Source: Actinomycetales bacterium (GTDB taxonomy: Bacteria > Actinomycetota > Actinomycetes > S36-B12 > UBA5976). Taken from it: DNA of 64,000 nt. Where the stretch lies: contig JAIXQF010000004.1 of assembly GCA_027484085.1 (NCBI GenBank), positions 444,162-508,161 of the forward strand, written 5' to 3'. The notes under the pieces were generated by a model. That model did no database searches, was not told the DNA's origin, and saw nothing but the letters and a program-made list of their open reading frames with translations. Position 1 is the first letter of the stretch, and each line of letters opens with the position of its first letter. A program made the position numbers and the translations under genes. Shown here one piece after another: positions 7,245-31,184 of the stretch.

Positions 7245-7778
7245 TTAGGACTTTGAGCGCTTAGTTATCTCAACGGTCGTGCCTATTCCAATCATTATCA
7301 ACCCAATTGGCACAGTAATAAATAACCCCCATATAAATGCACCACCACCTGTGCTCTCATTAAACATCGATCCTCCCGCTAGGAGTGAATACAAGAAGGC
7401 ACCAATGATTGGACTTAGTGTCACGAATTGCCCGGTACGGACCAGCAATGGCTTCTTGCGGACCGTTGCTGCGACCGTAGTTGGAGATGCCAGAAGCACA
7501 ATGTTGTAAATCGGTATCAAAATGAACCAACCACTCTTGCCGACATCATGCATTCTTCGAATGGAAGCGGCAATGGTCGGAAGTAACGTGATGAGGGTTA
7601 GAGCATTTTGTCCACTCTTGCCAAATGCCATGCCAACAAGTGCAGAGGAAATCGCTGTAGCCAAAATGTAATACCAGTACTGTGACCTGGTTGATACGCC
7701 TTCAAAATCAAGAAATCTTGAAAATGCATCTTTCACTGCGTTGGTTAAGTCAGCAAATATTGGATCGTTGTTACTCAT
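7245..7778 (-). CDS. DUF805 family membrane protein
   Basis: AFSRFLDFEGVSTRSQYWYYIL...RRMHDVGKSGWFILIPIYNIVLL. Confidence 0.8.
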   Translation of the reverse strand: MSNNDPIFADLTNAVKDAFSRFLDFEGVSTRSQYWYYILATAISSALVGMAFGKSGQNALTLITLLPTIAASIRRMHDVGKSGWFILIPIYNIVLLASPTTVAATVRKKPLLVRTGQFVTLSPIIGAFLYSLLAGGSMFNESTGGGAFIWGLFITVPIGLIMIGIGTTVEITKRSKS

Positions 7779-17719: not shown

Positions 17720-18745
17720 GTGTCGCAGACCGTTTCGTTACGTCGGTTAAATCTTCGTCGTAAGAGCAGCAAGGACAACACCAGTGCTGCCGTATCAGCG
17801 AGCTATCGAATTCAGGCTTATGCAATTTTGGTTGCCTGGCTAGCCCTCTTCTTAGTCTTTAGTTTGTTGTTGCCTGAAGTTTTTCCAACTTGGCAAAACG
17901 TAACTTCAATTGCGAATCAGAAGGCTGCAACAGTTTTACTAACCCTTGGTTTAGTTTTTGCACTTTCTGCTGGTGAATTTGATCTTTCTATCGGTGGCGC
18001 AGTTTCGATGGGTGCAGCTATTCCGGCTTGGCTTGCTACTAAGCACGGCATCTCATTACCAGTTGCAATTTTGATCGCACTAGTTTTCGCAGCGCTGTTT
18101 GGTTTTATGAATGGCTTACTAAGTGTTAAGGCCAAGATCCCATCCTTGGTGGTAACGCTCGGCACGGGAACCGCGCTAGGTGGAATTGTTAGTGGCCTGG
18201 CAGGCAATACAACACTTAGTGTTCAAAACTTTTCATTCGTAGCACTTGTTAAGACACGTATCTTCGGGTTCTATGCAGCCTTTTGGTTCATGCTTATCTT
18301 GGCTTTGATCGCCTGGTACATATTGGAGCACACTCCAATCGGACGCCAACTTTACTTCGTCGGACAAGGTCGCGAAGTTGCACGCTTAGCTGGTATTCGG
18401 ACTAACGCTTATCGCTACTACTCGCTAATTCTTTGTTCAACTTTGGCTGCCCTAGCTGGTGCCATGGTTCTAACTACTGCCGGTGCTGCACAATCAAGCA
18501 TCGGTAAGTCATATGTGTTGCCAGCCTTCGCGGCAGCATTCCTTGGTTCAACTGCAATACGACCTGGACGCTTCAATGTCTGGGGAACTCTTGTAGCTGT
18601 ATATTTCCTCGAAACCGGAATCACGGGCTTACAGCTCAAGGGCTTCGAGGTTTGGATTACAGATGTGTTCTACGGACTCGCGCTTGTTATTGGCGTGCTC
18701 GTAGCCACAGTGGCATCCAACCTTCGGTCGCGGTCGAGTGACTGA
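17720..18745 (+). CDS. ABC transporter permease (RbsC/BPD_transp_2 type)
   Basis: ALSAGEFDLSIGGAVSMGAAIPAWLA, GRQLYFVGQGREVARLAGIRTNAYRYYSLILCSTLAALAG. Confidence 0.9.
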   Translation: MSQTVSLRRLNLRRKSSKDNTSAAVSASYRIQAYAILVAWLALFLVFSLLLPEVFPTWQNVTSIANQKAATVLLTLGLVFALSAGEFDLSIGGAVSMGAAIPAWLATKHGISLPVAILIALVFAALFGFMNGLLSVKAKIPSLVVTLGTGTALGGIVSGLAGNTTLSVQNFSFVALVKTRIFGFYAAFWFMLILALIAWYILEHTPIGRQLYFVGQGREVARLAGIRTNAYRYYSLILCSTLAALAGAMVLTTAGAAQSSIGKSYVLPAFAAAFLGSTAIRPGRFNVWGTLVAVYFLETGITGLQLKGFEVWITDVFYGLALVIGVLVATVASNLRSRSSD

Positions 18746-18754
18746 ATCAAAACA

Positions 18755-19918
18755 ATGGGAAAGGTACGTCTAATGCGCGCACAGAAGAAAATGCGTTACG
18801 GCTTCGTAGCCGCCGCACTTGCTGCCGGGCTAGTTTTGAGCGGTTGCTCAAGCTCGTCTGAAGAAGCAGCTCCAACCGAATCCGCAACTGGTTCAGCTGA
18901 TGGTTTGGCAACAGCACAGGCAGCATACGACGCTGCGTTAGCTGCCTCGCTAACCTTCGCTTACCCAGGCGATGCGTTTGACGCATCAGCTGCATCTGGC
19001 AAGAAGGTTGCAATGATTTCGATCAACGACCAGATTCCAGTATTGAAGCAGTGGACCGACACAATCAAAGCTGGCCTCGAGTCACAGGGTGTAATCGTGA
19101 CCCAGACAAGCGATGCTGGTGGCGTTATTGATCCACTACCTAAGTTCTTCGCACAGGCAGTAACTGACAAGGTTGACCTAATCGTCACCAACGCAGTTCC
19201 AGCTGCACTTATTCCACTAGCTGACTTGGGCGACATTCCAGTAATGACAACCAACCAGACTGCTGCTCCAGGTGTTGCTGTAGCTGACGGCATTGCCGCC
19301 GATCCATCTTTCGATTACACAATCCCAGCAAGCCTTATGGCTGACTGGTTCTGTGTAACCGGTGCTGGTGCAGGTAACGCAGTTGTATGGGGATCTGAAG
19401 GCCAAGCCTCCAGCCCAATCATGATTGACACCATCAAGGCACGTGTGGCAGAAGTTTGCCCAGACGCCAAGGTTGATTACCAGGATGCACCGCTTGCAAC
19501 ATGGTTCGATGGAACACTTGATGGTGTTGCAAAGAACGCTGTTACAGCAGATCCTTCAATCACTCATCTGATGCCAATCTACGACGGCATGACTATCGCT
19601 ACTGGCGCTGGTCTTGATGCTGCTGGTTCAGCAGCCATCCAGTCATCGTTCAACATGACTCCTGCAGTAGCTGCTGGTATTGGTTCTGGTTCAGTAAAGA
19701 TGGACGTTGGTTGTCCAAATGACTGGTTCTCATACGCAACGGCTGATGCAGCCCTACGTCTGTTGACCGGTAATGCTGTGCCTGATAACTACGGAATCAC
19801 CTGCAAGGTATTCGATGAATCCAACATTGGTTCAATCGATGCGACTGTAGAAAATTCTGTTAACTGGTACGGAATTGACTTTGCAGCTGAATTCGCAAAG
19901 TACTGGACCGCTAGCTAG
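18755..19918 (+). CDS. ABC transporter substrate-binding lipoprotein (periplasmic-binding-protein type 1-like)
   Basis: Lipobox VLSGC; ITSM-type sugar/nucleoside binding layout; real start may be ATG 18773. Confidence 0.85.
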   Translation: MGKVRLMRAQKKMRYGFVAAALAAGLVLSGCSSSSEEAAPTESATGSADGLATAQAAYDAALAASLTFAYPGDAFDASAASGKKVAMISINDQIPVLKQWTDTIKAGLESQGVIVTQTSDAGGVIDPLPKFFAQAVTDKVDLIVTNAVPAALIPLADLGDIPVMTTNQTAAPGVAVADGIAADPSFDYTIPASLMADWFCVTGAGAGNAVVWGSEGQASSPIMIDTIKARVAEVCPDAKVDYQDAPLATWFDGTLDGVAKNAVTADPSITHLMPIYDGMTIATGAGLDAAGSAAIQSSFNMTPAVAAGIGSGSVKMDVGCPNDWFSYATADAALRLLTGNAVPDNYGITCKVFDESNIGSIDATVENSVNWYGIDFAAEFAKYWTAS

Positions 19919-19927
19919 TTATTAGTT

Positions 19928-19965
19928 GTGACTGGTTGAAGTCAGCAATGGCTTCAACCAGTCAC
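19928..19965 (+). terminator. hairpin between substrate-binding protein and ATPase genes (attenuator/partial terminator)
   Basis: Perfect 14-bp stem GTGACTGGTTGAAG/CTTCAACCAGTCAC, then a pyrimidine-rich tract. Confidence 0.75.
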
Positions 19966-20037
19966 ACTCTTCTTTAAGTTTGCAAGATAAAAGTTTTAAG
20001 AAATTAAGTTCAAGTTCTTAGCGCGTAGGAGATTAAA

Positions 20038-22257
20038 GTGACCGATGACAGTGGCATCCGCCCAGTCCTTGAGTTCACCAATCTGTCCAAAACTTTTGGT
20101 CCAACTAAAGCGCTATCAAATGTAGATTTCGACGTTCGCCCCGGTGAAATTCACGGGCTAGTAGGTCGTAACGGGTCTGGTAAATCGACCCTAATCAAAG
20201 TTCTTAGTGGCTTTCATGACCCAGATCGTGGCACCAAGCTAGTTCTTCGCGGCGAAGACATCGAGTTGCCACTTCGCGGTAACGATGCCGCACAACTCGG
20301 AATGGTTTTCGTGCACCAAGATCTTGGCCTGGTTCCAGCCTTTAGCATTCTAGAAAATCTGCGCCTTGGCACTTGGCGTCGTTCTGGACTTTCAAAAATT
20401 CCGTGGGCCGATGAGAAAAGCGCTGTCGCTTATCAACTTTCACAGTTTGGTCTGAAGTGGGATCCACTTACGCCTGTTGGCGCATTGCCGCCAGTAGATC
20501 GTGCGATCGTGGCTATCGCTCGTGCGATACGAGAAATCGCAACTAATCCAGAAGGACACGTACTCGTCCTCGATGAACCAACCGCCTACTTGCCAAGTGA
20601 ATCTGTCGACAAACTCTTTGACGCGGTTAGGAAGGTAACTCGCCAAGGAACTGGTGTTGTATTCATTAGTCATCGCACTGATGAAATTTTGAATTTAACT
20701 GATCGCATTTCAGTGCTGCGCGATGGTCGCAAGGTTGCCACCGTCAACACAAAGGAAACTAAAGAAGCTGACTTAGTCGCCATGATTTTGGGTCAGTCCT
20801 TGAATGCGTTTTATCCAGATCATGTGCCAACTCCGTCTAAGGAAGTGGTCCTGCAAACCAAGAACATGGCAGCCGGAAGCATTCCGAAACTTAACATCAC
20901 GCTTCGTCGTGGTGAGGTACTTGGAATGACCGGCCTAATGGGCGCAGGTCACGACCAGGTCCCTTACGCATTGTTTGGCGCAATTGAACATTCAGACGGA
21001 ACCATCACTATCAAGAACAAGAAGTTTGAAAAGGAAGAGTTAAATCCGCGCAAGGCAGTAGGTGCTGGAGTTGCACTTCTTCCTGGAGATAGAACTGGAG
21101 CTAGCGGTGTATTGCTAGCAACTCTTACTGACAACGTTGGTATGCCAGTCTTGAGTAAATACTTCACTGCTGGCCGCCTACGTCGTAACAAGTTGAAAAA
21201 AGACGTAGGGGAGTTACTTCGTCGCTTTGATGTGAAGCCACCAGTTCCAGGCATCGAACTTCGCAAACTCTCGGGCGGAAACCAACAGAAGGCTCTACTC
21301 GCAAAGTGGATTCAAATTAAGCCAGATGTACTTTTGTTGCACGAACCAACTCAAGGTGTTGACGTCGGTAGTAAAGCTGCGATTTTCGAAAAGATTGCTG
21401 ATGCGGCTCGTGGTGGCACTGGTGTGATCGTGGCTTCGGCTGAGCACGAGGACTTAGCCAACATCTGTAATCGCGTGCTTATCTTCGCTGAAGGTAAAGT
21501 CGTTGCAGAGTTGACGGGGCGCGAGTTAACCCCAGAAAAAATTGTGGAATTAAGTTACCTAGGAACGCGTAAGGGCGGCGGCATCAAGCGCGGCTTCGTC
21601 TGGCGTCCTCACATGAATGGTCTGAAGGGCCCATATTTACATGTAACGCGTAACTACACCTGGTCACCGCACAAGATTGGTTACAGGACTGAAGTTGAGT
21701 GGCCAACTCCACCACCACCTCCGGTGCAGTACGAGAAGCAACCTTCTACGTTCGTTTGGTCTCCACATTCTGTCGGATTCGTAAAGCGCGAGTACCGCTG
21801 GTTCCCACATCACGTGGGTATGCAAAATACTCCAATGCCTTATCCAGGTCCACGGCGTGTCAAGGTTGAGCGTGAATTCACGCTGGTGCCAACAGGCGAA
21901 TTGAGCTCATTCTTTGTTTGGCGTCCGCATTACGTTGGCAACAACGAACCGGTTTACTTGGGTCCAAAGGACGCTGATAAGTGGAAGACCGAGCTTGCTG
22001 CGTCACTGGCAGCAATGGTGGCTCGCGGCGAAATCACTTCGATAATTGCCGAGAAGATGGCAAAGGCTGCTGGAGTCTCGGTTGGTCAAGCCCAGGACTT
22101 ACGAGTAACAGTCGAGTTGGATGTCCGAACTCGCAATAAGGGCAACTTGGCAGACATCGATCGCCTGAAGTTTGCGCTACTGAACATGGATCAGAACTTG
22201 GTAGATGTAAACGGAGTTCGCATTACCGATGTGTCTTTGCAAGCCAAAGATTCTTAA
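20038..22257 (+). CDS. RbsA/MglA-type ABC transporter ATP-binding protein with unusual C-terminal [FY]xWxPHxxG repeat extension
   Basis: GLVGRNGSGKSTLIKVLSG Walker A, second ABC half with LSGGNQQK; about 230 aa extra after KIVELSYLGTRKGGG. Confidence 0.92.
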   Translation: MTDDSGIRPVLEFTNLSKTFGPTKALSNVDFDVRPGEIHGLVGRNGSGKSTLIKVLSGFHDPDRGTKLVLRGEDIELPLRGNDAAQLGMVFVHQDLGLVPAFSILENLRLGTWRRSGLSKIPWADEKSAVAYQLSQFGLKWDPLTPVGALPPVDRAIVAIARAIREIATNPEGHVLVLDEPTAYLPSESVDKLFDAVRKVTRQGTGVVFISHRTDEILNLTDRISVLRDGRKVATVNTKETKEADLVAMILGQSLNAFYPDHVPTPSKEVVLQTKNMAAGSIPKLNITLRRGEVLGMTGLMGAGHDQVPYALFGAIEHSDGTITIKNKKFEKEELNPRKAVGAGVALLPGDRTGASGVLLATLTDNVGMPVLSKYFTAGRLRRNKLKKDVGELLRRFDVKPPVPGIELRKLSGGNQQKALLAKWIQIKPDVLLLHEPTQGVDVGSKAAIFEKIADAARGGTGVIVASAEHEDLANICNRVLIFAEGKVVAELTGRELTPEKIVELSYLGTRKGGGIKRGFVWRPHMNGLKGPYLHVTRNYTWSPHKIGYRTEVEWPTPPPPPVQYEKQPSTFVWSPHSVGFVKREYRWFPHHVGMQNTPMPYPGPRRVKVEREFTLVPTGELSSFFVWRPHYVGNNEPVYLGPKDADKWKTELAASLAAMVARGEITSIIAEKMAKAAGVSVGQAQDLRVTVELDVRTRNKGNLADIDRLKFALLNMDQNLVDVNGVRITDVSLQAKDS
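21595..21939 (+). repeat. five [FY]xWxPHxxG protein repeats in the ATPase C-terminus
   Basis: FVWRPHMNG 21595, YTWSPHKIG 21655, FVWSPHSVG 21751, YRWFPHHVG 21793, FVWRPHYVG 21913. Confidence 0.92.
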
Positions 22258-22260
22258 GTT

Positions 22261-23637
22261 CTAAACCGCTGCAAGTGATTTCAAGCTCGTCGCAACTGAT
22301 TCGGCCCAGGTTCGGGAATCAAAATCATTAATCTGTGTCTTTAGCGCAACTGACATTTCGTTTCGGACATTTTCATCTAGGTTTGCTGCGGCTTCAAGTG
22401 CCCGAATTATGCTCGCCTCGCTCGCATCTCGTGCAACTACACAAAATGACTCAAGTTCGGCCATTGCGCCGACTTCTGAAGTACTTACGATGACACCATT
22501 TCTAGCATTTAAGACCGCACCTTCTTTAACAACCAGATTTAGCCCATCTGCCACAGAACAGGCAATCAAGAAGTCATAGCGAGTAAGTGCTTGAGTGGCT
22601 CGCTGGTAATCATTTCCGACATGAAGCCGAATAGGCGAGTAGCCCAGATAACTCAGAACAGAGTTGCTGGTCTGTACACATTCCGTAATTTCTACCAGCA
22701 GCTTCTGGTACTCGGGCCATTGTTGGCGCGATGGCACCACGTACAAATCCAGAAACTTTCGAGATTGTGATTCTTTCAAGCCTGCGACGTACTTAGTAAA
22801 TGCAGTTATGGTCGTCACGGTGTTCTTTATTGGGTCAGATCGTGCAATGTGAACATAGCTAGTATCACCATCAGCCAAATTGATTTGCGACTCATGATTA
22901 GCGGCAAGTTTTTGCAGAGCTTGAACGTTTACCGAGACCGGATTGACTTTTAGGTTTGCACCAAGTGCCTTTTGGCCAAGATGCGTGCTCACAAAATCTT
23001 CAAAAGCCACTAGGTCGCGTTTGGTTTGAAACTCGATTACATCTGCTGCCAACATCCCAATAGCTAGGAACTTCAAAACTTCGATACTGAAATGCGCGAG
23101 CGGACCTGTCTTGGGCCAGGGTGCATGCAGAAAAAACGAAATCGATTCGGCTACTTCTAGCTCGCGAAGCGCCCGTGGAACTTGGGAAAGTTGAAAGTCA
23201 TTAACGAGAAACCCATCACTACCAGAGCTAACAGATTTGCTTGCCAGGGCACGGGAAATGGTGGCGATGGAATCCAGGTAAGTGGCTAAATCAATTTCAT
23301 CGATCGCGGGTATCGATAAGCCATGGAGAAGTGGCCAAATGTATTTCGTGCAAAACCAGTCTGAACGATTTAGCTGAGTGTCATCAACTTCGGCCAATAC
23401 GATGTTGATTTCGTTATGAAAGTCTTGATCCGAAATTTTTGTAAATGGGTATTGGCTGGGAAGGTCAATTTGGCTTTGGGCAGTAAGTGAAGTCCAGGTG
23501 ATGTCAGCAAATTCGGCTAATGCAGGTAAGACTCTTGTCAGGCCGCCGACGTGTTCAACCGTTATTTGCAAATCTGGAGACTGATGAATCGGTGCCCGCC
23601 TTGAGAGCACACCAATGTTCATGCAACTTTCGGTCAC
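22261..23637 (-). CDS. glycosyltransferase related to trehalose-6-phosphate synthase (GT20-like, divergent)
   Basis: VNDFQLSQVPRALRE, FFLHAPWP, RSDPIKN, ACSVADGLNLVVKEGAV resemble OtsA motifs. Confidence 0.72.
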   Translation of the reverse strand: MTESCMNIGVLSRRAPIHQSPDLQITVEHVGGLTRVLPALAEFADITWTSLTAQSQIDLPSQYPFTKISDQDFHNEINIVLAEVDDTQLNRSDWFCTKYIWPLLHGLSIPAIDEIDLATYLDSIATISRALASKSVSSGSDGFLVNDFQLSQVPRALRELEVAESISFFLHAPWPKTGPLAHFSIEVLKFLAIGMLAADVIEFQTKRDLVAFEDFVSTHLGQKALGANLKVNPVSVNVQALQKLAANHESQINLADGDTSYVHIARSDPIKNTVTTITAFTKYVAGLKESQSRKFLDLYVVPSRQQWPEYQKLLVEITECVQTSNSVLSYLGYSPIRLHVGNDYQRATQALTRYDFLIACSVADGLNLVVKEGAVLNARNGVIVSTSEVGAMAELESFCVVARDASEASIIRALEAAANLDENVRNEMSVALKTQINDFDSRTWAESVATSLKSLAAV

Positions 23638-25585: not shown

Positions 25586-26602
25586 TTAATTACTTAGTAC
25601 TTCGATCTTCCCCGAGCCAGTAACAACTTTACCGATCGTGATAAATCCTTGTTCGATGAGTTGAATTTCATGGGCTGGGTCAATGCTCGCTAATAGACCA
25701 CCGTTTGTTTGTGGGTCAAAAAGCGCGGCTTGGAAACTGCTCTCAGAAAGCCCAACAACAACGCTATCTAACGCTTCTCGATTGCGCGCATCAGCCGATG
25801 TGCGTTTTCCAGTATCAAATAGAGATTGAGCCGCTGGCAGCACCGCTTGCCCGGGTAGTTGCACTTGGGCGTCTAAGGTTGCAGACCCAAGCATTTCACT
25901 TAAGTGACCAATTAAGCCGAAGCCAGTTATGTCAGTTACGGCATGAACCCCAGAACCCAATGCAACTAGGGAATCGCGAGCCCCTAAGTTCGAGATCTTC
26001 ATTTGGCCAAGCGCAGTAGCCTCATGCTCCGGTTCGCGAGTGGAAAGCAGCACTCCAACACCTAGAGGCTTCGAAAGCATCAGCAAGTCGCCATCGAGCA
26101 TTCCAGTCTTGCGCCAAATCTGATTCGGATTAACGAACCCAGTGGCAGCTAGTCCAAAAATTGGTTCTGCAATTCGGACGGTGTGCCCGCCAAGAATCTC
26201 AACGCCCGCCTCTCGACAAGCTAAAGCGGCTCCAGATACACAAGCTTCAATCTCTGAGTCTTGGATTTCTTTGGGAAATCCACAAACCAATAGCGCAGTC
26301 TTGGCCAGTCCACCCATTGCGTAGATGTCAGAAAGTGAATTCAGGGCACTCACATATCCGTATTCAAACGGGTCGCTAACTACAGGTGGAAAGAAATCAA
26401 TCGTTGTGATTAATGAAGTGGTGTCATTGATTGCGGTAACTGCAGCGTCATCGGGTGCAGCAAGTCCAACCAAGGTATCGTCACCTTGTTGTCCCATTGC
26501 TGCGGAACGAAGCAACTTCAGTAGGGATGCATCTGCTTTAGCAGCGCACCCACCACATGAAGTTAAATCCCGAAGACTGACTGCGTTTACCTCAAGTGTC
26601 AT
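25586..26602 (-). CDS. selD: selenide, water dikinase (selenophosphate synthetase)
   Basis: LTSCGGCAAKAD active site, TTIDFFPPVVSDPFEYGYVSALNSLSDIYAMGG, HAVTDITGFGLIGHLSEM, DPQTNGGLL. Confidence 0.93.
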   Translation of the reverse strand: MTLEVNAVSLRDLTSCGGCAAKADASLLKLLRSAAMGQQGDDTLVGLAAPDDAAVTAINDTTSLITTIDFFPPVVSDPFEYGYVSALNSLSDIYAMGGLAKTALLVCGFPKEIQDSEIEACVSGAALACREAGVEILGGHTVRIAEPIFGLAATGFVNPNQIWRKTGMLDGDLLMLSKPLGVGVLLSTREPEHEATALGQMKISNLGARDSLVALGSGVHAVTDITGFGLIGHLSEMLGSATLDAQVQLPGQAVLPAAQSLFDTGKRTSADARNREALDSVVVGLSESSFQAALFDPQTNGGLLASIDPAHEIQLIEQGFITIGKVVTGSGKIEVLSN

Positions 26603-27992: not shown

Positions 27993-29255
27993 CTAGTTGA
28001 AACGTAAGCCGAGAGTTTCGGCGATTGTAGTGCGCTGTACTTCATCAGTACCGCCTGGAATTCGCAGGTTGCGAGCGATTTGGAATAGCTTGTTGATGTC
28101 TGTGTCTCGCAGGACGCCAGAACCACCATGAATCTGCAGTGCGCGATCTGCAACACGATAGAAAGACTCATCGTTGCTTAGTTTGAGTGCACAAATCCGT
28201 CGCACTTCATCACTTGGGCGAGGCAAATTCCACCATGGACCAGGTGTGTCGATTGCACGCGCTACGTCTAGTGAAAGTGATCGAGTTTGCTGCCAATCGA
28301 GGTACATGTCTGCGATCATCCACTGGATGCCTTGCTTTGCACCCAATGGTTCGCCACCAACAATGCGAGTCTTCACGCGCTCAAGTGTCTTTTCAATCAG
28401 GTACTTGTTCCAGCCTGAACACATTCCGGCTCGTCGCATTCTGGTGTAGTTGAACGACATAACAGCGATGTCAAAGCCACCGTTAACTTCACCAAGCACG
28501 GCGCTTTCTGGCAGCACCATGTCTTCGAAATGAATTTCACCGGTGTAGCCATCGCCAAACATAGTTTGGTAAAGCTTGCCAATCTTGTAGCCCTTTGATG
28601 CGTACTCTTTGGTGTCAAACATGAAGTAAGTGAATGACTTGCGTCCACCACCAGGATTTGTGATTGCCAGTACTTGTGCAACATCTGCATCAAAGTAGTT
28701 AGTGATGTACGCCTTGGTGCCGTTGAGTACCCAATCGGATCCCTTGCGCACTGCATTGGTTTTCATGTCGTAAAGATTTGAGCCTGCGCCAGTTTCAGTT
28801 ACGCCGTGCAAACTGGTCTTTAATCCCTTAACTAGTGGGTCAGTGAACTGTTCCTTTTGATGGGCGTGGGCATGAAGTAGTCGAGGAGTTGCGCCTTCAG
28901 ACCAGGACAAGAGGGCAGGATTCAGACCTACGCCGTATCCATATACTTTTTCCTCAACATAAATCATGTCTTCGCGGCCAAGTCCGCGACCACCTAGAGA
29001 TTCAGGCAAGTGTGCGCTGTAAATATTCTTGGCACCAGCAGCAGCCATGATTTCGCGACGAGCAGCGATGATGTCTTGGTGCAGGCGACCATTCTCATCA
29101 AGGAACTTTGACTGGTCACTAAGTAAGTGGTCAAGCGCCTTCTCGCGAGGTGCGACTTCGTTGTCGTAAAGATCTGAAACTTCGGAAATCACACTCTCGA
29201 GGTGTGCAGGTATGTGAAGTTCTACATCTAGTGGGGACGATAAATTGCTGCTCAT
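27993..29255 (-). CDS. acyl-CoA dehydrogenase
   Basis: SLHGVTETGAGSNLYDMKTNAVRKGSDWVLNGTKAYITN, QIHGGSGVLRDTDINKLFQIARNLRIPGGTDEVQRTTIAE. Confidence 0.93.
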   Translation of the reverse strand: MSSNLSSPLDVELHIPAHLESVISEVSDLYDNEVAPREKALDHLLSDQSKFLDENGRLHQDIIAARREIMAAAGAKNIYSAHLPESLGGRGLGREDMIYVEEKVYGYGVGLNPALLSWSEGATPRLLHAHAHQKEQFTDPLVKGLKTSLHGVTETGAGSNLYDMKTNAVRKGSDWVLNGTKAYITNYFDADVAQVLAITNPGGGRKSFTYFMFDTKEYASKGYKIGKLYQTMFGDGYTGEIHFEDMVLPESAVLGEVNGGFDIAVMSFNYTRMRRAGMCSGWNKYLIEKTLERVKTRIVGGEPLGAKQGIQWMIADMYLDWQQTRSLSLDVARAIDTPGPWWNLPRPSDEVRRICALKLSNDESFYRVADRALQIHGGSGVLRDTDINKLFQIARNLRIPGGTDEVQRTTIAETLGLRFN

Positions 29256-30637
29256 TTGTTTCCTGTTCCATTTACTTGGCTTAACTGGTTTTTGGTTTTT
29301 GTTTCCGAGAAATTTAATGCAACTGGGTTATCTGGTAAGGCTATTGTTTCGAAAGATCCAGTCGCGTGCCCCTTGAAACTTGCGCGGTGTGAGAAATGCG
29401 ACATAAGGGGCAAAATGTCGCTCGCCATAACCGCGCCGAGGTCGCCTGATTTATGTGAACGTTCATCGCAAGAAACAACATCATCAGCGTGAACATGTGG
29501 TCCAGCCAAAATTATTGAAGTGGGATGAGCAGAGTGCATGATTCCGCCGGTCGATGGCGTTGCATGGTCTCCGGTAATGACGATGGTTACAGTCTCGGCA
29601 AGATTTATCAGACCATGACAGGCGCGATCTAAGCTTTCGATCACATCGCGCTTGAGCATTGGTTGCTTGGTGTGGCCCGCTTCATCTGTGGCCTTGGTAT
29701 GTATGTGAACAAATGAATGGGTCTTACTTAGCTCGATACCAGCTTGAATGCGCGCTTCAAAATCAGCTTGAACATTCTCTAAGTCACTTGGAATGTGAAT
29801 TTGAGTCATCCCTAAAACTTCAGCCAGACCTCGATAAAGCGCAGAACTGGTAACTGCGGCAGCAGTTAGGCCAGTGGTTTGTTCAAATGACTTTAAATCA
29901 GTTTTCTTGCTCGCCCATTTAGTTACGGGAGCAATTAGTTCTAGTTTTCCGGCGGCCCGCCTGGCTTCATTAATTGGATGAGTTATTAGCAAAGCTATAG
30001 CTGAATTAATCCAGCTTGTGATCAATTCAGCGGATTGCTGCGCTGCGTTTTGATCTTGGGCTGCTTCCAGTGGCAGTGGTTTTAACACTGGGTGAAGATG
30101 TCCAAAAAGAGGATCACTGTCACTGATTTCATGTGACGAAATAACATCAGATTCCAGGATGCACTCACCATTTCGAAGCGGGTGAAGAACCGGACTTAAC
30201 TCGTGCGGCATAACTCGTAATGCATCAAAAAGTTCCAGGCAGTCATTGGCATCTTCTTGAGAAACTCTGCCCGTTGCCAGAAGTTTTCCATCGCTTAATG
30301 TGGCTGGGCGAAGCGCTAAGTGAAAGTGTGGCCGGTCAACTGGAATGTTGATTCCCATACCGATTGCCTCAAGTAGCGCGCGACCTGGGAAGGTTTGAGT
30401 CTGGCCAAACATAGCCCAGTGGCTCCGTTCGCTCGATGTTGCGCGCCCTGGGCCAAACGGTTGATGGATTCCGGATACACCAATTCGAGTTAGTTGATCC
30501 AAGTTCGGAGTGCTTGCCGCTTCAAGCGGCGTCCGATTATCTAGTTCTGAACTTGGTCGATCGCCAAGGCCATCAAAGGTAATCAAAATCAGGGGAGTGC
30601 GGTCATCCCACATAGGTGCTGGCTTCAATTCAAGCAC
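29252..30637 (-). CDS. alkaline-phosphatase-superfamily phosphoglycerate-mutase-like protein (ApgM type)
   Basis: LILITFDGLGDRPSSELDNRTPLEAASTPNLDQL, HIHTKATDEAGHTKQPMLKRDVIESLD, VITGDHATPSTGGIMHSAHPTSI. Confidence 0.82.
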   Translation of the reverse strand: MLELKPAPMWDDRTPLILITFDGLGDRPSSELDNRTPLEAASTPNLDQLTRIGVSGIHQPFGPGRATSSERSHWAMFGQTQTFPGRALLEAIGMGINIPVDRPHFHLALRPATLSDGKLLATGRVSQEDANDCLELFDALRVMPHELSPVLHPLRNGECILESDVISSHEISDSDPLFGHLHPVLKPLPLEAAQDQNAAQQSAELITSWINSAIALLITHPINEARRAAGKLELIAPVTKWASKKTDLKSFEQTTGLTAAAVTSSALYRGLAEVLGMTQIHIPSDLENVQADFEARIQAGIELSKTHSFVHIHTKATDEAGHTKQPMLKRDVIESLDRACHGLINLAETVTIVITGDHATPSTGGIMHSAHPTSIILAGPHVHADDVVSCDERSHKSGDLGAVMASDILPLMSHFSHRASFKGHATGSFETIALPDNPVALNFSETKTKNQLSQVNGTGNK

Positions 30638-31184
30638 TCACTTTTGTGGAGTTTGAATAATCCCACTCCGTCTGAATCACGTTGATTGCACTAGGAGTAA
30701 CAAGCGATTTCCACTCACTGTCCGCTACTGACAATGAGTGGCGAATGTCAGATGCCGACAGTTTTGCGGCTGGGGCTGGGAGTTCTAAGGTTTCAAAACC
30801 TTGATCTGCGAACAGCGATAACTTACTTGCTTCCCACGGACTGAAGATCCGAACCGCAAACACCGATTCCGCAGGAATGCTCCATGATCCTGGCTGCGCT
30901 AAATCAAACGGAATGATTTCAAATTCCACAGCAATGTCTTCGCCTTGCAATAACCCAGTCAACGAGGCCTGAATGATCTTGACTCGAGCTTCGTACGTAA
31001 ACGGGTTTGCGTCATCGGTATGTCGATGTGAACTTGCACTATGTTCTTGCAGGTTCGAAAGGTCAGGATTTGTGATTCCAATAATGATGCGATCAAAATC
31101 GTGACTTAAGGCAGACAGCACTTCCAAATGTTGGTTATGGAAAGGCTGGAATCTGCCAGTGAAGCAAGCCACGCGCTGAGTCAT
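30630..31184 (-). CDS. nicotinamide-nucleotide adenylyltransferase-like (NadM type nucleotidyltransferase)
   Basis: FTGRFQPFHNQHLEVL, GITNPD, NPFTYEARVKIIQ, KLSASDIRHSL. Confidence 0.75.
   Translation of the reverse strand: MTQRVACFTGRFQPFHNQHLEVLSALSHDFDRIIIGITNPDLSNLQEHSASSHRHTDDANPFTYEARVKIIQASLTGLLQGEDIAVEFEIIPFDLAQPGSWSIPAESVFAVRIFSPWEASKLSLFADQGFETLELPAPAAKLSASDIRHSLSVADSEWKSLVTPSAINVIQTEWDYSNSTKVSA

Follow-up and report, generated by a model that had tools for sequence, protein, structure and literature searches.

The locus examined here raises the question of why an ABC importer ATPase should continue for more than 200 residues past the point at which its relatives end, and what a tail built on repeated Trp-x-Pro-His motifs might contribute to a transporter. 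The ATPase gene lies in a stretch of 64,000 nucleotides, which is referred to here as the window. The organisms that carry such a tail are uncultured freshwater actinobacteria, and the tail is characterized by a ten-residue motif, [FY]xWxP[HY]x[VI]G[FY], present in one to five copies. The features of the transporter region, all on the plus strand, are as follows.

17720..18745, plus strand: importer permease, BPD_transp_2, 341 aa (Pfam E value, 1.8e-34), syntenic in the loci compared
18755..19918, plus strand: lipoprotein substrate-binding protein with a weak Peripla_BP_4 match (Pfam E value, 0.002); syntenic orthologues in another family are 52 to 58% identical
19927..19966, plus strand: strong 18-bp hairpin in the gap that separates the binding-protein gene from the ATPase gene (z, −6.4), kept in relatives with compensatory changes
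20038..22257, plus strand: ATPase open reading frame, 739 aa, with a GTG start and AGGAG about 8 nt upstream
20038..21558, plus strand: RbsA/XylG/AraG-type double ABC ATPase core, residues 1 to 507 (NCBIfam and Pfam)
21559..21951, plus strand: repeat-bearing tail region with Pro-rich linkers, residues 508 to 638, kept in 12 genomes of the genus
21595..21624, plus strand: motif copy 1, FVWRPHMNGL (motif profile)
21655..21684, plus strand: motif copy 2, YTWSPHKIGY (DNA pattern and motif profile)
21751..21780, plus strand: motif copy 3, FVWSPHSVGF (DNA pattern and motif profile)
21793..21822, plus strand: motif copy 4, YRWFPHHVGM (DNA pattern and motif profile)
21877..21909, plus strand: FTLVPTGELSS, no credible motif copy (below the profile threshold; F, L, P, T, G, E, and L invariant in the genus)
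21913..21942, plus strand: motif copy 5, FVWRPHYVGN (DNA pattern and motif profile)
21952..22254, plus strand: C-terminal domain of ∼97 aa found in the window's genus, predicted helix-helix-strand-helix-strand (AF2 pLDDT of ∼60 to 70, tail residues 142 to 235)

The ATPase core and its C-terminal extension

Judged by its sequence, the protein is a CUT2/RbsA-type ABC importer ATPase with two ABC domains in one chain. The NCBIfam models for RbsA, XylG, AraG, MglA, and their relatives match residues 9 to 507 over almost their whole length; one such match, PRK13549 (NCBIfam; E value, 3.6e-106), covers residues 9 to 506 and model positions 4 to 501 of 513, and Pfam ABC_tran matched two stretches of the core. 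All scores against the named sugar-specific NCBIfam equivalogs were far below cutoff (e.g., XylG, 355.6 versus 699), with bit scores about half of those required. The second nucleotide-binding domain (NBD2) has an intact LSGGNQQ signature and a degenerate Walker A motif (GLMGAGHDQ), and the NBD1 signature is also degenerate. The latter reads LPPVDRA in the window gene, LSQVDRA in the orthologue from G470, and LKPVERA in the more distant relative from G171, and such degeneration seems to characterize this ATPase subfamily.

In NCBIfam, the double-ATPase models (492 to 513 positions) leave 232 C-terminal residues uncovered. An earlier note on this DNA had described an extension beyond the normal end of RbsA/MglA-type ATPases near 500 aa, and the NCBIfam alignment places its beginning after residue 507. 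The same note recognized no named domain in the extension, and profile searches concur: no match was found in Pfam, NCBIfam, PHROGs, or PDB sequences, and no NIL, MOP/TOBE, or CBS domain following the ATPase, of the regulatory kind known from MetN, ModC, MalK, or ProV, was detected in Pfam or NCBIfam. A DUF3182 match in Pfam (E value, 0.014) was treated as chance.

Five [FY]xWxPHxxG copies had been read from the sequence, with start-to-start distances of 60, 96, 42, and 120 nt, and all five were recovered, starting at positions 21595, 21655, 21751, 21793, and 21913. With a profile derived from every motif copy, the real copies scored 24 to 39 bits; when stop-free stretches of 100 or more codons were scanned in six frames across the window and six orthologous loci, no other site reached 6 bits. 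The array is thus beyond chance. The degenerate copy that had been proposed between copies 4 and 5 fell away, as FTLVPTGELSS contains only the F and P of the motif and scores below the profile threshold; the segment is nevertheless well conserved across the genus.

The distinct helical tail reported to follow the repeats corresponds to the ∼97-aa domain predicted by AF2. This domain has no sequence family or PDB match and is absent from all seven orthologues found in another family, so the motif, rather than the end domain, is the element common to both families. Searches of the order yielded no free-standing gene for the end domain, and the two notable matches are what is left of broken ATPase genes of this type. 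In the first (L116, positions 487 to 858, genome G489), the second ATPase domain is joined directly to the end domain, the two meeting at a shared RNK; the second (L117, near positions 7363 to 7500, genome G487) is a decayed scrap beside an OtsA-like gene. Both may be pseudogenes or bin contamination. For the repeats themselves, AF2 gave pLDDT values of 24 to 33. This low confidence is no proof of disorder, because the alignment is too shallow: a full-length run did no better on the ABC core, a region of well-established fold. A fold search of the PDB with the AF2 tail model, the confidence of which is too low for a decisive result, returned nothing.

Conservation and copy number of the motif

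The gene was found in 12 of the 23 genus genomes searched, each time with the tail in the same single open frame (one carrier gene is cut by a contig end), and tail identity among these carriers is 71 to 94%. In those genus members that have no tail, the ATPase itself is missing too at an E value of ≤1e-100. Eleven public MAG records have the gene as well, several of them labelled Candidatus Nanopelagicales or Actinomycetota. A frameshift or misfusion, which the earlier note had named among the findings that would undo its reading, is excluded by the single open frame in all genus orthologues (12 of 12 carriers) together with the occurrence of motif tails in seven distant orthologues.

Selection was gauged by pairwise codon comparison of the window gene with those of three of the more diverged genus members (L023, L021, and L020). 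The five copies together hold 25 key residues (F/Y, W, P, H, and G in each), among which 0 to 1 nonsynonymous differences were observed at saturated or near-saturated dS. Since 24 or 25 of these residues are unchanged while synonymous sites are saturated, this codon-level evidence indicates that the motif is held by purifying selection. In the same comparisons, identity was 87 to 95% for the core, 71 to 82% for the linkers, and 64 to 80% for the C-terminal domain. The five copies keep a fixed spacing of 20, 32, 14, and 40 aa throughout the genus.

A first search of the order retrieved six orthologues from another family (50 to 57% identity over the matched stretch), and seven were obtained once 166 genomes of the order had been searched (55 to 58% identity over the core). 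At an E value of ≤1e-140, the ATPase is present in 19 of these 166 genomes, comprising the 12 from the genus and the 7 from the other family, and every one of the 19 has the motif. Copy number in the other family is one in G470 and G476, three in G513, four in G487 and G505, and five in G535 and G545, with a period of ∼31 to 35 aa. In the smallest form (G470 and G476), a single FRWRPHRVGY begins 12 residues before the stop codon, after a linker of 14 to 19 aa, and the tail finishes ...KFRWRPHRVGYDN stop. Several tandem copies are near-identical at the DNA level (90 of 90 nt in G487, 89 of 90 in G505, and 83 to 87 of 90 in G535 and G545), indicating that copy number changes by recent in-frame duplication. 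These comparisons show a motif fused to the ATPase, varying from one to five copies by species, and spreading by in-frame tandem duplication.

A total of 33 copies give the consensus [FY]-x-W-x-P-[HY]-[R..]-[VI]-G-[YF]. W is found in 33 of 33 copies, as are F/Y and H/Y at their respective positions; P and G each occur in 32, and the x positions vary. Tyr replaces His in 7 of the 33. The tails examined contain no Cys, and their linkers are 38 to 62% Pro/Gly/Ser/Thr/Ala with few hydrophobic residues. In each of the nine tails examined, the motif copies are net positively charged, and the linkers of G535 and G545 are acidic.

The next relatives of the ATPase, at 40 to 49% identity, come from G053, G486, G522, G171, and G649; the C termini of four of them (G053, G522, G171, and G649) have no motif tail. 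When the motif was searched as a DNA pattern, only the ATPase gene was matched in eight carrier genomes (with four matches in G000), and no match was obtained in four comparison genomes without the gene. A stricter pattern applied to 397 genomes of the phylum matched only the window's own gene. The genome-collection scan was queried with the exact peptide patterns of the window tail, which do not retrieve the form found in the other family. The tail was not found in plasmids, and a search of the open literature for the motif strings gave only an unrelated yeast maltose paper. Several weak candidates were rejected: phylum-wide profile matches in G431 and G452 (E value, ∼0.009) proved to be chance on reading; PHROGs matches to the other family's tail (E values, 0.006 to 0.02) were judged chance, as tblastn gave only stretches of Arthrobacter phages opposite annotated genes; and two pattern matches in IMG/VR have a stop codon inside the motif.

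Genomic context and possible function of the array

The transporter lies in the middle of a cluster whose order is largely common to both families and which encodes HMG-CoA-lyase-like, CoA-transferase, and nitrilase-type amidase proteins, the transporter, a methyltransferase, SelD, MmgE/PrpD, and acyl-CoA-dehydrogenase-like and phosphoglycerate-mutase-like proteins. The 12-kb regions around the ATPases of G522 and G053, which have no motif tail, do not contain this cluster. Judging from the enzymes of the cluster, the substrate may be an organic acid or an amide that is processed as its CoA ester. The hairpin upstream of the ATPase gene probably limits read-through or stabilizes the upstream mRNA, and probably sets an excess of binding protein over ATPase.

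Three neighbouring genes merit separate mention. A genuine SelD (25586 to 26602; 276.7 bits against a cutoff of 125) is encoded within this catabolic cluster, and several of the other family's loci retain it. An OtsA-like glycosyltransferase (22261 to 23637) is 40 to 59% identical between genus members, whereas neighbouring proteins are mostly 85 to 98% identical; L020 has only a partial match, and neither L084 nor the other family's loci have any, a pattern that suggests either unusually fast evolution or replacement. Finally, at 29255 to 31184, the phosphoglycerate-mutase-like protein matches PhpG (phosphonoformyl transferase) and is encoded next to a cytidylyltransferase-like gene, a pairing that recalls phosphonate pathways.

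Our preferred reading, to which we assign a probability of roughly 0.4, is that the tail is an array of short linear motifs, variable in number, that docks a cytosolic partner protein. The minimal form is a single FRWRPHRVGY at the end of the chain, so one short peptide seems to be enough. A docking peptide is favoured by this single terminal copy, by multiplication without fixed spacing, and by near-fixed anchor residues separated by variable positions. All motifs would dock at the same site on the partner, each acting as one peptide, and additional copies would strengthen binding through avidity or bring several partner molecules to the transporter. A further small folded domain would have been added to the tail in the window's genus. 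A cytosolic partner is somewhat more likely than the permease, and the most economical candidates would be cytosolic proteins encoded by the cluster (CoA-transferase, nitrilase-type amidase, methyltransferase, MmgE/PrpD, or acyl-CoA dehydrogenase-like). The imported substrate would then meet its first enzyme at the membrane, or the enzyme would gate uptake. That the array recruits, and perhaps clusters, the adjacent catabolic enzymes, coupling uptake to metabolism at the membrane through a tunable and rapidly evolving copy number, is a tentative extension that we consider doubtful.

The main rival to docking is autoregulation of the importer, in which the motifs would bind back onto their own ATPase or the permease and modulate ATP hydrolysis or transport, as a linear-peptide counterpart of the MetN/ModC regulatory domains. 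In the genomes tested, the motif is always fused to the ATPase and absent from every other gene, and regulatory C-terminal domains on the ATPase are known in ABC importers (PMC10710835). However, no regulatory domain family was detected in Pfam or NCBIfam, intramolecular binding needs no variable number of identical copies, and the known regulatory domains dimerize, whereas a double ATPase would give one tail per complex; autoregulation is possible but rather doubtful. It is less probable still, and in our view unlikely, that paired motifs form a compact folded domain that binds a ligand and senses the imported compound or a nucleotide. The conserved linkers of the window's genus (71% or more at saturated dS) and the fixed spacing of its five copies would suit such a domain, and 71% linker identity at this divergence is as compatible with a folded repeat domain as with a flexible one. 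Yet a paired fold is impossible for one-copy orthologues, and the spacing differs entirely between families (20/32/14/40 versus ∼31 to 35 aa).

Two proposals of the earlier note lost ground. Docking to the membrane was one of them; in the broader form of aromatic and basic residues binding the inner leaflet, RNA, or polyphosphate, it draws on the net positive charge of the motif copies, but W, P, H/Y, and G are near-fixed while Arg and Lys vary, and the linkers of G535 and G545 are acidic. As the basic residues are far less conserved than the anchors, the simple electrostatic version is weakened, and we regard membrane or polyanion binding as improbable. The other was metal binding by clustered His residues, in which the Trp-x-Pro-His repeats would gather around a metal ion. 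Every copy in the window gene does have its His, but the tails of G470 and G476 contain a single one, Tyr stands in for His in 7 of 33 copies, Cys is lacking, and no metal-transport gene was recognized beside the ATPase; metal binding is accordingly very unlikely. Hardly any weight is left for neutral tandem duplication of a dispensable C-terminal stretch. Freshly duplicated copies do reveal a region prone to expansion, but this explanation is largely refuted by the purifying selection that preserves the key residues where dS is saturated and by retention of the motif in 19 of 19 orthologues from two families.

If the docking reading is true, this would be an uncommon way for bacteria to couple a transporter to a partner, with an array of one to five copies that evolves under selection by tandem duplication in genomes of ∼1 to 2.5 Mb. 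The orthologues would offer a natural copy-number series (1, 3, 4, and 5) for avidity, and the motif could be searched for on other transporters.

Comparison with known systems

Most of the known tails with a regulatory or docking role on ABC importer ATPases consist of one folded domain. The window protein shares with CUT2/RbsA-type ATPases (RbsA, XylG, AraG, and MglA) the double-ATPase core, the linked BPD_transp_2 permease and lipoprotein binding protein, and the degenerate second Walker A motif; it differs in that none of the models includes the 232-aa motif tail, and in scoring about half of the equivalog cutoffs. Like the MetN C2 and ModC ATPases, it has an additional C-terminal segment on the ATPase that faces the cytosol, but theirs are single folded, dimerizing, ligand-binding domains, whereas that of the window gene is an array of a ten-residue motif with no detectable similarity to them (PMC10710835). 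The N-terminal repeats of CsoS2 resemble the array in architecture only, having a short conserved motif in several linker-separated copies; the sequences are unrelated, and CsoS2 is a free scaffold protein that binds Rubisco, whereas the motif array forms part of a transporter ATPase (PMC10614612). The motif tail is thus no detectable member of the CsoS2-type scaffolds or of the MetN/ModC regulatory domains; it is a previously undescribed, variable-copy motif tail on a CUT2 importer ATPase.
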